IMG/VR virus record: IMGVR_UViG_3300021343_000055
Location: 1 to 30,347 of that record
DNA length: 30,347 bases
Origin: a virus
Reading direction: 5' to 3' (one strand)
Within the stretch, counting starts at the first letter, position 1, and every line of letters starts with the position of its first letter. The notes under the pieces are model-generated. The model had not been told where the DNA came from and did no database searches. It saw nothing but the letters and a program-made list of their open reading frames with translations. Position numbers and translations under genes: made by a program. Shown piece by piece: positions 4,532 to 12,114 of this stretch.

Positions 4532-6418
4532 TTAGCAGAATCCTGCTGGCATCCAGTTGAGTGCCAGTTGGTTTTGCTCCGGGCTCAGGCGCTCGTCATT
4601 GCCTGCTAGAGCGTTTTCCAGCTCCGCTGCTAAGTCGCCTTTCTTGCGCTTTTGCGCGGCGTCTGCCCAGCGCTCCGGCATGAAGGGGGCGGCCAGTTCA
4701 ATCAGTGCGGGCTTGCTGAGGCGGCCTAGGAAGTTCTCTACCTGCGGGCTCCAGTTGTTGCACCAATCAATATTGAGCTGATCGATGATGTGTTCGCCAA
4801 TGTCGCTGCTGGCCTGTGAGCGCTTGAGGCCGCCTTCCAGGGTGAGGGCGATGCAGTAGGCGACCAGTCGGCCTTTGTCTTCTGCGGGGAGTTCCTGGAA
4901 GGCTCGCAGGCGCTCGGCGTCGTTCTCGTTGTGGATCCAGTTGGTGTTAAGTCTTGCCGCCAGTTCGGTCAACAGCTGGTAGCCCTGGCATTGGGTAACC
5001 GTGGGGTGTTTGTCCGCGTCGAAGGTTTGGCGGGCGGTCAGGTTAATCGGATCTCCCCAGTGGGTCGACCCCAGTATCTGATAGCAAAGGGTGTAGTGGG
5101 CTATGTCCCGGGCGAGCTCCGGCTGTTGGGCCAAGTGTGCCTGCGCAATAACTTTTCGGGTGGCGGCCAGGTCTTCCTTAAGGGCTTGTGAATAGCTCTC
5201 AGCGGCCGGCTCTTCCTCGGTGGTGGTTTCGGCTTCCTGGATGTTGTTCGGTTCAGCGTCGCCGCTCTCCAGGGCTTTCAATTGCGCCAGCTGCTCTTTG
5301 CGTACCAGGCCGGTATGGAAGATGGGCTCTCCTGCGCCATTGATGCAGACGATAAACCCGGCCAGCGCTTTCTGTTCGGGGGCGAACGCTGTTTTCTCCG
5401 CAATTTCGTCCTCCAGCTTGCTCCATTTGGCCTCCAGGTCATGCAGTTGCTCTGCCAGCTCGTCAGTCCAATCATCTGGATCCATTTCGTTCAGGGCGTC
5501 AATGGCTTTTTCGGTCGCTTTGTACTCTTCCTGCAGGGCTTCGGGTGGTGTGCCGGTCAGGGTGGTGTACTGGCTTGTGTCGATATAGCGATCGGTGGTG
5601 TTTGCTTCGTGCCATAGCCAGCCGTCTGCCATGCCTTCGGCAATGGTGCCCAGCTTTTTCTCAGCGAGCTGGAAAACCAGTTCGCGGTTATCCAGGTAGG
5701 TGGTGTTTTCAAACAGATCGGAACTGGTGGTGCCGCCAGCGGATTTATACGTTTTCAGGTCAACAAACTTGGCGATCGCATCGGTGCTTTTGATGGCGCT
5801 CTCCGTGAGTCGACTTCGGATGGTGTGAGGGCTTAAGCGGTAGCGTTCGCCTTTGAAGGATTTTAGGACGGCCAGCTGTTTCTTGTGATCGTCTTCCAGG
5901 GTAAAGGCCATCACGTCTTCAAGATCCAGCTTCTTGTCCCGGTACTCCTGGCGAATCTCAGGGGCAACCAGGGCCAGTTTCAGGCGCTGTTTAACGTGCT
6001 TTTGTGAAACGCCAAAGCGGTTGGCGATATCTTTGGTGGTGGATCCGGCCTCCTTTGCTGCCTGGTAGGCCTCAAACTCATCGGCTGGGTGTGCGGCGGC
6101 GCGGTGGGTGTTCTCTACGATCGAGAGCTCGATGGCCTCCTGCTCCGTCTGCGCTATCTGGCAGGGGATAGTGTCGTTGTTGTTAAAGTGTTTTTCTTTA
6201 ACCAGGGCTATGGCTTGGGTCAGGCGACGCTGGCCCGCAACAACTTCAAAAATGTTTCTCTTGCCTGGGTAGACGATCAGGTTTTGCTTGATGCCATAGG
6301 CCTTGATGGAGGCCTTGAGCTGTTCGTCCTCGGTTTTAGTGGCTTCGCTCTTGCGCATGTTCAGTGGTGAAACACGCAGGTTTTTAATGGGTATGTACTC
6401 AATCGCTTGGTTGGTCAT
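4532..6418 (-). CDS. ParB-like DNA-binding protein (ParB/Srx domain)
   Basis: The first ~155 residues are a ParB N-terminal domain: IPIKNLRVSPLNMRK at 10-23, KASIKAYGIKQNLIV at 35-49, the arginine-rich nucleotide-binding box EVVAGQRRL near 58-66, VENTHRAA near 107, and an HTH near 132-154 (TTKDIANRFGVSQKHVKQRL). ParB-type domains bind CTP and DNA. The remaining ~450 residues include an acidic coiled-coil-like region (DEMDPDDWTDELAEQLHDL) and a helical C-terminus. At 628 residues it is much longer than chromosomal ParB, like the large ParB-like proteins of many siphophages and plasmids. No ParA partner lies next to it. It is the first gene after the terminator at 6461-6483. Confidence 0.85.
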   Translation of the reverse strand: MTNQAIEYIPIKNLRVSPLNMRKSEATKTEDEQLKASIKAYGIKQNLIVYPGKRNIFEVVAGQRRLTQAIALVKEKHFNNNDTIPCQIAQTEQEAIELSIVENTHRAAAHPADEFEAYQAAKEAGSTTKDIANRFGVSQKHVKQRLKLALVAPEIRQEYRDKKLDLEDVMAFTLEDDHKKQLAVLKSFKGERYRLSPHTIRSRLTESAIKSTDAIAKFVDLKTYKSAGGTTSSDLFENTTYLDNRELVFQLAEKKLGTIAEGMADGWLWHEANTTDRYIDTSQYTTLTGTPPEALQEEYKATEKAIDALNEMDPDDWTDELAEQLHDLEAKWSKLEDEIAEKTAFAPEQKALAGFIVCINGAGEPIFHTGLVRKEQLAQLKALESGDAEPNNIQEAETTTEEEPAAESYSQALKEDLAATRKVIAQAHLAQQPELARDIAHYTLCYQILGSTHWGDPINLTARQTFDADKHPTVTQCQGYQLLTELAARLNTNWIHNENDAERLRAFQELPAEDKGRLVAYCIALTLEGGLKRSQASSDIGEHIIDQLNIDWCNNWSPQVENFLGRLSKPALIELAAPFMPERWADAAQKRKKGDLAAELENALAGNDERLSPEQNQLALNWMPAGFC

Positions 6419-9504: not shown

Positions 9505-9732
9505 ATGAATGTCTTAAAAGAGTTTCGGCTTGCAAAAAACTTCAATCAAGCTCAGGCGGCCGGCTATTTGGGTGTTTCCAAAAGCTTGATTTCTCATATG
9601 GAGACGGGGCGAAGGGGAATTACAAAGCAGATAGCGCGCAAGATGTCTCAGGACCCGGAGATTGGGAGTGATTTTCCGCTTGAGCGGGTTTTGTTTGCTG
9701 ATGATGCTTGGTCTGAGGAAGAAGCGGCGTAG
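9505..9732 (+). CDS. Cro-like XRE-family regulator
   Basis: A 75-residue protein from ATG 9505, with GGAGGG 5 bp upstream. The HTH NFNQAQAAGYLGVSKSLISHMETGRRGITKQIA (residues 12-44) is a classic Cro/CI-type fold with the QAAGYLGVSKSLISHME recognition region. It is the first gene of the rightward early operon and divergent from the repressor, so by position it is the Cro equivalent. The frame remains open upstream to 9379 but that would cover the operator, so the short form is preferred. Confidence 0.85.
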   Translation: MNVLKEFRLAKNFNQAQAAGYLGVSKSLISHMETGRRGITKQIARKMSQDPEIGSDFPLERVLFADDAWSEEEAA

Positions 9733-9840: not shown

Positions 9841-10140
9841 GTGAGTGAATTTTGCGTGGGCTCGCTAACCGATGCACAGAAGGACTACTTTGAGCAGTTG
9901 CCTGTGAGCTCAAGGGTGAAGGCGGCAGCTTATATCGCCGTAATGGGAGTGTCGCGTGTGGGCGTCAAAACCAAATTGGCTCTGGTTTGGCCTCACGCGC
10001 GCATTGATAGGGAGTATCTGGAAAAGGAGGCCGCCGAATTATTGGGAGCTATAGCAGCTGCTTCGCTAGAAGCTCTGCCTCCTCAACAGATTGAGCAGAT
10101 TTGCAAAGAGAGAGACGAACGCCTGTCTTTTGCTGAGTAA
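9841..10140 (+). CDS. Hypothetical early protein (99 aa)
   Basis: GTG start with AGGAG 6 bp upstream. The protein is helical (KAAAYIAVMGVSRVGVKTKLALVWP, then EKEAAELLGAIAAASLEALP) with no recognised domain. It takes the cII position after cro, but I do not see a CII-like signature. Its last 92 bp overlap the 3' end of a minus-strand gene (10049-10303) tail to tail, so the two transcripts would be antisense to each other. Confidence 0.6.
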   Translation: MSEFCVGSLTDAQKDYFEQLPVSSRVKAAAYIAVMGVSRVGVKTKLALVWPHARIDREYLEKEAAELLGAIAAASLEALPPQQIEQICKERDERLSFAE

Positions 10141-10303
10141 CTTTTGCCACAAAGTGGTAGAAATTGCCGTTGTGGATGACATCGCCCTCTTTAACCGGGT
10201 TGTCGGAGTAATAGTATCTAGGGTCCATGTCGTCGCCATCGTGAAGATAGTGCAGGCGGTATTCAAGTTGGTTGGTGTTTGATCTGTCTCGGTTGTTGAT
10301 CAT
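10049..10303 (-). CDS. Hypothetical minus-strand protein in the right early region (84 aa)
   Basis: Product MINNRDRSNTNQLEYRLHYL..., with aromatic strands (RYYYSD, NFYHFVAKV) and a C-terminal helix (SVEEAELLAKQL), a protein-like pattern. ATG 10303 has AAGGA 6-9 bp upstream. It is transcribed against the early operon from the duplicated module at 10338-10401 and overlaps the preceding plus-strand gene by 92 bp. Either member of the pair could be spurious, but both have good RBSs. No family recognised. Confidence 0.5.
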   Translation of the reverse strand: MINNRDRSNTNQLEYRLHYLHDGDDMDPRYYYSDNPVKEGDVIHNGNFYHFVAKVTQQKTGVRLSLCKSAQSVEEAELLAKQLL

Positions 10304-10337
10304 TTCTCATCCTTGCTGTTGGTTGTTTGGTTGTGTA

Positions 10338-10401
10338 GGAGCTACTGAGCATACAGCGGTGGGCGCCACCTGCCTAGTGGTGGGGTTGCCGGGCTGCCGG
10401 C
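10338..10401. repeat. Duplicated divergent control module, copy 1
   Basis: This ~64-bp segment recurs at 10882-10947 with only scattered changes and two 1-bp gaps. It starts GGAGCTACTGAGCATACA and contains two potential hairpins: CCACC (10366-10370) with GGTGG (10379-10383), then GCCGG-GCTG-CCGGC (10388-10401). It lies between a minus-strand gene start (10303) and a plus-strand gene start (10431). Weaker similarity extends toward the minus-strand gene (TTTGGTTG). Confidence 0.75.
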
Positions 10402-10430
10402 CTGAATTAAACAAACTTTTGGAGGGGTAT

Positions 10431-10661
10431 ATGGTAGATGATTCTGAGGTGAGGTTTCGGTGCTTAGGGCTTGCTGCAAAGCTGGTGGATTCTCTTGGTC
10501 CTGGAGTTTTTGTTGCTGACTCAGTGGTGGCCTGTGCCGAGCGATTCGAGCGTTATGTGAGGGAGGGCAAGAGTCCGCACACTGCTCAGGCTGAGAGTGG
10601 TGTGCGAACTCGGGTTTATCGAAATATGCCGGGTCTTATAGATGTTCGAGAAGTGCTTTAA
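10431..10661 (+). CDS. Hypothetical early protein (76 aa)
   Basis: ATG 10431 has a strong GGAGGGG 5 bp upstream. The product begins MVDDSEVRFRCLGLAAKLVD and contains a helical middle (ADSVVACAERFERYVREGK) and a basic C-terminal part. No family recognised. The frame stays open upstream through the duplicated module to 10272; that part would read GATEHTAVGATCLVVGLPGC, reminiscent of translated leaders annotated as Ash-like in other prophages, but the RBS favours 10431. Its 3' end overlaps the minus-strand gene 10636-10851 by 26 bp. Confidence 0.6.
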   Translation: MVDDSEVRFRCLGLAAKLVDSLGPGVFVADSVVACAERFERYVREGKSPHTAQAESGVRTRVYRNMPGLIDVREVL

Positions 10662-10851
10662 GGTGTGCGATCGCCTGTTCTCGGGCGGAGTCAATAGTCA
10701 GGTCCGGGGATCCTTCAATACTTGCTGAGAGGGATAAGTTCGCGCGGTACAGGTCGTTTTTGGCTTCAAGGTCCATGCTGACGATCAGTTCTCCAGGGTT
10801 GGAGCCATTGGCGATGCGAATTTCCGGGTTGGTAATTGTTGGAGAGGTCAT
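10636..10851 (-). CDS. Hypothetical minus-strand protein, second of the pair (71 aa)
   Basis: ATG 10851 has AAGGA upstream on the minus strand; the longer frame to 10920 would run into the duplicated module and is rejected. The product MTSPTITNPEIRIANGSNPG... shows alternating strands (ELIVSMDLEA, YRANLSLSASIEG) and a C-terminal helix (AREQAIAHLKALLEHL), like a small alpha/beta protein. No family recognised, and no clear similarity to the other minus-strand protein at 10049. It is divergent from the replication gene, with the second module copy between them. Confidence 0.55.
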   Translation of the reverse strand: MTSPTITNPEIRIANGSNPGELIVSMDLEAKNDLYRANLSLSASIEGSPDLTIDSAREQAIAHLKALLEHL

Positions 10852-10881
10852 AACGATTCCTTTTGTTGTTTGGTTGGTTTC

Positions 10882-10947
10882 GGAGCTGCTGAGCATACAA
10901 CAGGTTTGCGCCACCTGCACTAGTGGTGGGGTTGCCGGGCTACCGGC
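10882..10947. repeat. Duplicated divergent control module, copy 2
   Basis: Second copy of the module at 10338-10401. The GAGCATACA block, the CGCCACCTGC..CTAGTGGTGG hairpin and the GCCGG-GCTA-CCGGC hairpin (10934-10947) are kept. It again sits between a minus-strand gene start (10851) and a plus-strand gene start (10971), so gene order and control region are both duplicated. Confidence 0.75.
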
Positions 10948-10970
10948 GTTCTAATGGATTTGGGGGCTTT

Positions 10971-11747
10971 ATGCAGGATATTCCTAGGCGGTTAAACAGC
11001 TGGAAGTGGAATGAGTTGGAGGATGAAGCGCTGGATAGGTTGCACTGTGCTCGTCATGAAAAGCTATACCTTCGTGGATTGCGCAAGTTTATGGATTATG
11101 AGACGGGTATCGTAGGTCTGAAACGTACTGTGTGTGAGCAGGGTATGTATGAGTTGCTAGAGGAGCTTCGAGACCGGGGGAGTCGTGTGCCAGAATTCAA
11201 GCCCTCGAGGCACGTGATTCAAAGAATGCTCAAAAAGTTGGAGTCGGTAGGCTTAATTCAACGTTTGCCAAAAGCGCACAAAAAGGATCGCATGGTTTTC
11301 TATTTGCCTCTGGCTTGTACAGGTAAAATTTCTCCTGAGGAGGAGCGCACAAGGAGCGCACAAAGAGGAGCGCACAATAAAAAGGTAGATAAACCAAAGG
11401 GATGCGGTTATTCGGCCGCACAAGGAACGCACAAGGAGGAGCGCACTACCTCCGGTATATCCGGTACTTTAACTGGTAATACTAATAAATATATCTATAG
11501 GGCTGTGGATAACTTTTCGCTGATGTATCGCGAGTGGTTTCCGGATCAGTCGTCATTGGATTATCTGTGTTGCGAGTATGGATTTTCTGAGGATTTTCTG
11601 TCTCTTAAGGTGGCGGAGTTTCGGCTGTATTGGTTGGAGCGGGGCGAGCCAAGGGCTGATTGGAGTGGGCAGTTTGTTCGTCATGTAGAGTTTAGGTTGT
11701 CAAGGCGATCGCCGGAGTTTGTATTAGCGGCAAAAAAATTAAGCTGA
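10971..11747 (+). CDS. Replication initiator, O-like with DnaT-type C-terminal domain
   Basis: A 258-residue protein from ATG 10971 (GGGGG 6 bp upstream). The N-terminal ~105 residues are a winged-helix-like domain (LRKFMDYETGIVGLKR, HVIQRMLKKLESVGLIQRL). A hydrophilic linker (about 122-162) is encoded by an iteron array. The C-terminal ~65 residues (MYREWFPDQSSLDYLCCEYG, EFRLYW, ADWSGQFVRHVEF) match the DnaT DNA-binding domain found in phage replication proteins. It should bind the iterons in its own gene and recruit the host primosome. No DnaB- or DnaC-like gene follows in the window; Q comes next. The upstream-extended frame (10923) lies in the control module. Confidence 0.8.
   Translation: MQDIPRRLNSWKWNELEDEALDRLHCARHEKLYLRGLRKFMDYETGIVGLKRTVCEQGMYELLEELRDRGSRVPEFKPSRHVIQRMLKKLESVGLIQRLPKAHKKDRMVFYLPLACTGKISPEEERTRSAQRGAHNKKVDKPKGCGYSAAQGTHKEERTTSGISGTLTGNTNKYIYRAVDNFSLMYREWFPDQSSLDYLCCEYGFSEDFLSLKVAEFRLYWLERGEPRADWSGQFVRHVEFRLSRRSPEFVLAAKKLS
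11271..11510 (+). other. Probable replication origin: iterons plus AT-rich segment
   Basis: Direct repeats of GGAGCGCACAA occur inside the initiator gene: exact copies at 11342-11352, 11353-11363 and 11367-11377; one-mismatch copies at 11424-11434 and 11438-11448; weaker copies at 11413-11423 and 11271-11281. The cluster is followed by an AT-rich stretch (about 11465-11500, with AATACTAATAAATATATCTA). This is the lambda arrangement, in which ori lies inside gene O next to an AT-rich unwinding element. Confidence 0.75.
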
Positions 11748-11763: not shown

Positions 11764-12114
11764 ATGCTGGCTGATACGGTTGAACGCTTGGAGGGGTGGG
11801 CGCGCTGGATGCGATCGCATAAGCTCAGTTCGAATTGCAGCTCGCTGTACGTGTTGATGAAAGAGAGTATGGGTGGGGTGGTGTCGATGGAGTTGCCTGA
11901 TGATGAGGAGGCCTTGCTTATCGATGCCGCTGTTGCGCGATTGAAGTGCCGAGATCGTGAGTTGTTTGATGTGTTGTGGAAGTATTTTATCGAGGGATTG
12001 AGCTATCTGGAAATTGCTGAGCAAATGAGCTGCGGGCGATCTCGCGTGAAGGTTTTGCGGGACACTGCGATCATGTGGGTGGATGGTCGTTTGGATATTT
12101 CGGAAGCAGCGTAA
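11764..12114 (+). CDS. Antitermination protein Q-like
   Basis: A 116-residue protein with the layout of the phage antitermination Q family (type 82/21): an N-terminal WARWMRS, then DDEEALLIDAAVARLKCRDRELFDVLWKYFIEGLSYLEIAEQMSCGRSRVKVLRD, an HTH of sigma-4 type, and a terminal WVDGRL. Q proteins bind near the late promoter and make RNA polymerase ignore terminators. ATG 11764 has AGGGAGG upstream. The gene sits directly before two rho-independent terminators and the lysis cassette, exactly where Q is expected. Confidence 0.8.
   Translation: MLADTVERLEGWARWMRSHKLSSNCSSLYVLMKESMGGVVSMELPDDEEALLIDAAVARLKCRDRELFDVLWKYFIEGLSYLEIAEQMSCGRSRVKVLRDTAIMWVDGRLDISEAA

Follow-up and report, generated by a model that had tools for sequence, protein, structure and literature searches.

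Mobile promoter-stem-loop cassettes, in which an intergenic hairpin and a promoter flank exchangeable small genes, are found in T4-type phages. In lambdoid phages, putR and nutR lie between cro and the replication gene, and phage lambda itself has a leftward promoter near the O gene, pO, with the antisense RNA OOP made there. The put RNAs of HK022 let RNA polymerase pass terminators by way of the beta-prime zinc-binding domain. They consist of two long, bulged stem-loops that together span about 70 nt; stem I contains a triplex, and the put sites are near promoters (PMC9378689). The ESAS elements of cluster K mycobacteriophages are 17-bp imperfect repeats next to a 13-bp SAS box, present in many copies per genome, restricted to one phage cluster, and of unknown function (PMC3203893).

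The module in the early region of the window

The window, i.e., the whole stretch of DNA analysed here, is a viral record of 30,347 bp encoding an HK97-type siphovirus (terminase, portal, protease, head and tape-measure genes). Its early genes come in the order S24 repressor, Cro, A1/B1, module copy 1, A2/B2, module copy 2, DnaT-like, and Q-like (Table 1). When copy 1 was used as the blastn query on the record, copy 2 was the only other match, with 87% identity over 86 bp (E = 5e-23), so the record has no third copy. The chance expectation of the 34-base core pattern is 0.00. Aligned with gaps, the copies read GGAGCTACTGAGCATACAGC-GGTGGGCGCCACCTGC-CTAGTGGTGGGGTTGCCGGGCTGCCGGC against GGAGCTGCTGAGCATACAACAGGTTTGCGCCACCTGCACTAGTGGTGGGGTTGCCGGGCTACCGGC. 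An earlier note on this DNA had described a near-identical repeat with two hairpins in each copy, which both blastn and the alignment confirm at the positions it gave, except for the left boundary: the repeat reaches to about 10319 and 10862, inside the A/C-rich leader of the minus-strand genes. Its suggestion that a control unit was duplicated, each copy lying between divergent genes, is supported by the flanking starts on the minus strand (10303 and 10851) and on the plus strand (10431 and 10971), each of which has a plausible ribosome-binding site.

The genes around the copies are mostly orphans. No relative of A2 was found with Pfam, PHROG, and further relative searches, none of B2 with Pfam, PHROG, and tblastn in phages, and tblastn in phages also gave no match for B1. 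No gene for an N-like protein, which a lambda-type nut site (boxA plus a boxB hairpin) requires, was noticed among the early genes scanned with Pfam and PHROG. The convergent genes A1 and B1 (9841-10303) overlap by about 90 nt at their 3' ends. The same overlapping pair is also present in Marinobacter xestospongiae and in a Gallionellales MAG (L046:979-1459; L079:2890-3259), which suggests that both frames are kept. Within the DnaT-like gene, positions 11264-11446 consist of repeated GCGCACAAGGAG units of about 30 nt each, forming a repetitive linker; the replication protein as sole query had no relative in viral contigs. Leftward of the repressor, a 628-aa ParB-like protein (4532-6418) suggests a partition or plasmid-like function. 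The nearest relatives of the terminase, found in genomes with a 3-sequence terminase alignment, are in Gilvimarinus agarilyticus (80%) and an uncultured gammaproteobacterium (70%). The module is absent from the nearest terminase relatives (L022, L023, L003) and thus lies outside the conserved phage core.

Table 1. Positions of the module copies, their predicted elements, and the neighbouring early genes in the window.
Feature	Position	Strand	Evidence or remark
Module copy 1, whole repeat	10319..10401	.	blastn against own record and gapped alignment
Copy 1 hairpin A, GCG-C-CACC-TGC-CT-AGT-GGTG-G	10363..10383	+	family core; R2 46.7 bits (copy itself in model); covariation
Copy 1 hairpin B, GCCGG-GCTG-CCGGC	10388..10401	+	hairpin 3-5 nt past core in most relatives
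Copy 1 -35-like hexamer TAGGCA, 17 bp from -10	10371..10376	-	family-wide TnnGCA-17-TAnnnT
Copy 1 -10-like hexamer TATGCT, predicted B1 promoter	10348..10353	-	TAnnnT at same offset in 23/111
Module copy 2, whole repeat	10862..10947	.	blastn against own record and gapped alignment
Copy 2 hairpin A, GCG-C-CACC-TGC-ACT-AGT-GGTG-G, 1 additional loop base	10908..10929	+	R2 43.4 bits
Copy 2 hairpin B, GCCGG-GCTA-CCGGC	10934..10947	+	alignment of copies; hairpin B in relatives
Copy 2 -10-like hexamer TATGCT, predicted B2 promoter	10892..10897	-	18 bp from AGTGCA (10916-10921)
S24 repressor		-	first in early gene order
Cro	9505-9732	+	early gene order
A1	9841-10140	+	tail-to-tail with B1
B1, 84-aa orphan, downstream of copy 1 leftward promoter	10049..10303	-	relatives in Marinobacter xestospongiae and two MAGs
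A2, 76-aa orphan, 30 nt past copy 1	10431..10661	+	ORF with GGAGG site
B2, 71-aa orphan, downstream of copy 2 leftward promoter, tail-to-tail with A2	10636..10851	-	ORF
DnaT-like replication gene, 24 nt past copy 2	10971..11747	+	Pfam DnaT, E 1.6e-13; same junction in L217
Q-like gene	11764-12114	+	early gene order

Relatives of the module

Copy 1 had three convincing relatives (L106, L107, and L108) in a blastn search of 391 Pseudomonadales genomes. Two of them, L106 and L107, belong to early regions of prophage-like appearance, and each immediately precedes a small gene encoded opposite to the strand of the early operon. The covariance model R1, built on these three sequences and the two window copies, retrieved many additional members, with several copies in some genomes. 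Because three of these (L146, L156, and L157) mix features of the window copies with features of other relatives, the set of relatives is connected. Exact patterns made from the two window copies alone gave nothing or chance matches in viral contigs. The exact 17-base core CACCACTNNGCAGGTGNCGC is present in more than 119 viral contigs, among which we estimate about a dozen chance matches from our own calibration with a 19-base pattern (13 allowed spacings, 10 matches, all chance-like). The other carriers are some Pseudomonadales prophages, plasmids of Vibrio, Sedimenticola, and Microbulbifer, and Marinobacter phage PS3. Only 4 genomes in a sample of 398 from the phylum match at E 0.001, and the 11 genomes examined closely have 0-5 copies each, which makes travel with mobile elements seem likelier than a chromosomal repeat.

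No Rfam family reaches its curated score at the module in the window, in 20 genome loci, or in 11 viral loci; at E up to 10 there is one chance match, located elsewhere in the region. We found no published description of the element in the open-licence papers searched. The two-hairpin elements apparently make up a widespread and undescribed family.

Several copies have particular neighbours. In one subgroup of genome copies (L162, L165, L166, L170-L174, L177, L182, L183), an extra conserved hairpin with an nGGA loop (GGCA-nGGA-TGCC) lies beside hairpin A and resembles a CsrA/RsmA site. The copies in L108, L154, and others from G395/G327 adjoin GTTAGGC/GCCTAAC boxes that resemble integron attC sites. 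Some copies are next to phage tRNA genes (L262:2463-2550; L311:1500-1580; L187:7786-8082), with a tRNA-Leu-like sequence beside the copy in L262, and Phaeobacter phage MD18 has a copy, a weak match, between tRNA-Leu genes.

Covariation in the two hairpins

The plus-strand consensus is GCG-N-CACC-TGCnnAGT-GGTG-N', followed after a gap of about 4 nt by a second hairpin with a variable stem and a loop such as GAGAGA or GGCTGA. Folding of single sequences showed no gain over shuffles (z from -1.4 to +1.3), and the structural evidence for the module comes from the comparison with relatives only. In the set of 125 instances, the search pattern fixes the four inner pairs of hairpin A, so evidence can come only from stem B and from the outer pair. 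At the outer pair, N can pair with N' in 112 instances, and every pair type is represented (53 A-T, 50 T-A, 5 C-G, and 4 G-C; 13 other). Inner pairs covary in covariance-model hits obtained outside this pattern selection, from A-U to G-C in L161 and from C-G to A-U in the second copy of L150. The alignment of five sequences has three pairs changed on both sides, and its covariation score is reached by 1 in 500 shuffles. With 42 aligned sequences, in which the inner pairs are likewise fixed by the pattern, the score is 0.183, against 0.039 ± 0.015 for shuffles and at most 0.025 for slid structures.

Hairpin B begins 3-5 nt past the core. Its stem is 5 bp or longer in 54% of the 111 non-redundant instances (6% of shuffles), with 43 different stem arms. 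These stems were counted by a script because the covariance model on all hits misaligned stem B, whose loop varies in length. Compensatory base changes in homologues, on which the earlier note had staked its proposal, are therefore present in the outer pair, in stem B, and among the covariance-model hits. The comparison shows that the DNA encodes two adjacent hairpins, of which A keeps the loop TGCnnAGT and B is free to vary in its stem.

A predicted promoter on the opposite strand

The earlier note did not mention a leftward promoter in the element. On the minus strand, TAnnnT is found at one exact offset, 17 bp from TnnGCA, in 23 of the 111 relatives, and at 16 or 18 bp in 5 more; about 1 is expected by chance, and other offsets have roughly one. 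A spacer of 17 bp is the standard of sigma70 promoters, and the fixed spacing between TnnGCA and TAnnnT argues for a leftward promoter of this type. The resulting promoter subset (28/111 relatives) includes both window copies. A gene starts 40-70 nt downstream in 20 of these 28, compared with 4.8% of random positions, and the start of the small gene is usually 47-62 nt further along. Having TAnnnT at 16-18 bp from the -35 element and a gene start downstream, the site is a predicted promoter, and for this temperate-phage subset there is strong support that the minus strand of the same bases is of the sigma70 type (TnnGCA, 16-18 bp, TAnnnT). The -35-like hexamer is weak, with 4/6 at best in copy 1 and 2/6 in copy 2, and a simple consensus promoter scan did not list the leftward promoters of the window.

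The genes after the promoter are small and mostly unrelated: zinc-ribbon-like proteins (assigned by weak Pfam matches, below curated cut-offs), a BssS-family protein, and orphans. The opposite side often has genes of the replication region (O-like, primase-like, CII-like, and DnaT-like; labels given by eye, except for the DnaT-like gene of the window). Some covariance-model hits and viral loci have no evident gene start on either strand.

The strand of the putative RNA

The hairpins lie upstream of the start of the leftward promoter and could thus act as RNA on the rightward transcript only. In the class lacking the -10 (83 instances), a plus-strand stop codon is found at most 15 nt upstream in 23 (8% for random positions), most often at 6-9 nt. 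A gene start on the plus strand follows within 60 nt downstream in 36% (15% for random positions). The module follows genes of major head proteins (L187, L237), exonucleases (L211, L248), and a Gp2.5-like SSB (L227), and precedes a primase gene in L186. The odd pairs of hairpin B favour the plus strand (G-U 25 versus A-C 10; 295:338 in shuffles), and the mismatches in the outer pair of hairpin A lean towards the minus strand, where they give G-U about 6 times, against once on the plus strand. Overall, we favour an RNA on the plus strand by about 3 to 1.

A proposed two-way cassette at gene junctions

We propose, with a probability of around 55%, that each copy is a two-way cassette placed at a gene junction, a member of a family widespread in phages, that it combines a leftward promoter with a rightward RNA element, and that the window shows the duplication of an inserted unit. 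The leftward promoter would drive a small accessory gene against the early operon, B1 from copy 1 and B2 from copy 2, while the hairpins would act as RNA in the early transcript that runs rightward, ahead of A2 in copy 1 and of the DnaT-like gene in copy 2. Since carriers apparently have no phage gene in common, the hairpins are probably recognised by a conserved host factor. Their simplest role would be to separate adjacent cistrons and to protect or insulate them (mRNA processing, stability, or translation start), which we prefer over antitermination because the element is also found within middle and late operons directly past stop codons. The duplication may have occurred by insertion of one unit (module, A2, and B2) beside a resident module upstream of the replication gene. 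This history is drawn from a single comparison, with L217, which has the layout of the window with one module (repressor, Cro, two plus-type genes, tail-to-tail small gene, module, and DnaT-like gene). In Marinobacter phage AS1, Cro is directly followed by the DnaT-like gene and the module is absent.

The likeliest competitor of this proposal is a mobile or recombinogenic DNA cassette, in which the conserved bases would matter as DNA, for gene-swapping homology or as single-stranded DNA hairpins, and the promoter would travel along as in the T4-type cassettes. It accounts for window copies that flank an interchangeable gene pair, for unrelated small genes past the promoter in different phages, and for copies in phages, plasmids, and chromosomes. 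Yet, with 0-5 copies per genome, no associated transposase noticed, and a tight spacing to stop and start codons that mobility alone leaves unexplained, we regard it as improbable. For repeats of the REP/RAYT or IS200 type, many copies per genome and a matching transposase would be expected. Somewhat less probable still is the idea, prompted by the earlier note's likening of the module to HK022 put, of a protein-free antiterminator whose nascent plus-strand hairpins bind RNA polymerase past cro and allow read-through of terminators into the replication genes and Q. The likeness holds in kind for position and layout: two adjacent hairpins of put-like total length, on a rightward transcript between cro and the replication gene, among early genes in which no N-like gene was seen. 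The location of putR about 270 nt past PR (PMC9378689) also counts in favour. Membership in the put family is not supported. Across HK022 25-36 kb with filters off, the best match of R1, a simple covariance model, has 5 bits (E 1.9), and R2, also a simple model, gave no match in the early region. Moreover, the module has two 5-bp hairpins of about 18 and 14 nt instead of the long, bulged, triplex-containing stems of put near promoters, and it is also found past head-protein, exonuclease, and SSB genes and on plasmids.

Two further readings carry less weight. The minus strand could provide the RNA, for example within longer transcripts that run leftward, or in the manner of the antisense RNA OOP. 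The outer-pair wobbles of hairpin A favour that strand, and a leftward promoter beside an O or DnaT gene resembles lambda pO, but both hairpins are upstream of the deduced leftward start, outside that transcript, and the class without -10 sits between plus-strand genes; this makes the reading unlikely. The module could also be a palindrome to which a repressor or activator binds, its hairpins being a side effect of the dyad symmetry of such an operator, but we give this very little credence. Hairpin A does overlap the -35 region of the leftward promoter, but the fixed loop, ACTnnGCA, lacks symmetry, complementarity persists in the outer pair and in stem B although their bases vary freely, and the promoter-less class keeps the same structure. 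As for a translated leader of the Ash-like kind, another idea of the earlier note, copy 1 does literally read through as VVGLPGC, in the plus frame of the 10272-10661 ORF. This frame is not kept in the relatives, and the leader peptides have no match in Pfam or PHROG, nor by tblastn in phages and plasmids, so the idea is not supported. A peptide-motif pattern for such a leader gave two chance matches. The Ash-like leaders of Pseudomonas were dropped as an identity, with nothing in support.

Returning to the two-way cassette, a bolder and distinctly more tentative version of it is that of a family of structured RNAs, pan-phage in range and without an Rfam entry, in which the fixed loop would be the recognition site of a host factor that is universal, such as the ribosome, an RNase, or RNA polymerase. 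The RNA would control the passage from cistron to cistron without a phage protein, and in temperate phages it would be fused to an opposite-strand promoter hosting exchangeable small genes. A pattern of 17 fixed bases is enough to find the motif, which lies between genes in some plasmids and in many phages that are not related to each other, but nothing in Rfam matches it. If the RNA role is true, many phages of Proteobacteria would share an RNA-recognising step that is so far unknown. With the 17-base motif, phage genomes can also be searched in a simple manner for junctions under regulation and for accessory genes in antisense orientation, and the module is an example of a hairpin and a predicted promoter that share the same bases on opposite strands.

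Comparison with known systems

By the tests run, the module is not HK022 put, C4, or a known Rfam family. Like C4 antisense RNA (RF01695) and isrK (RF01394), it would be a short hairpin RNA of the prophage immunity and replication region, but it matches neither. Both are separate matches on the other strand in L146, where they lie side by side (L146:1721-1904), within about 300 nt of the module and inside an Icd-like ORF. With putL and putR of HK022 it shares a length of about 65-70 nt, two adjacent hairpins, a place in the early transcript of a temperate phage, and the lack of an evident phage protein; it differs in its short hairpins and fixed loop, in its presence in middle and late operons and on plasmids, and in the opposite-strand promoter predicted in one class. 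The ESAS elements of cluster K are likewise repeated inverted-repeat elements between phage genes beside translation starts (PMC3203893), whereas the module differs from them in sequence, is shared by many phages with one or two copies in each, and includes a putative promoter. The T4-type cassettes also place an intergenic hairpin and a promoter at exchangeable small genes, but they differ in sequence and phage group, and the module has a fixed hairpin loop and a predicted promoter that faces the strand opposite to that of its hairpins. By analogy, the module would work most like these last two systems, the start-associated repeats of cluster K and the promoter-stem-loop cassettes of T4-type phages.
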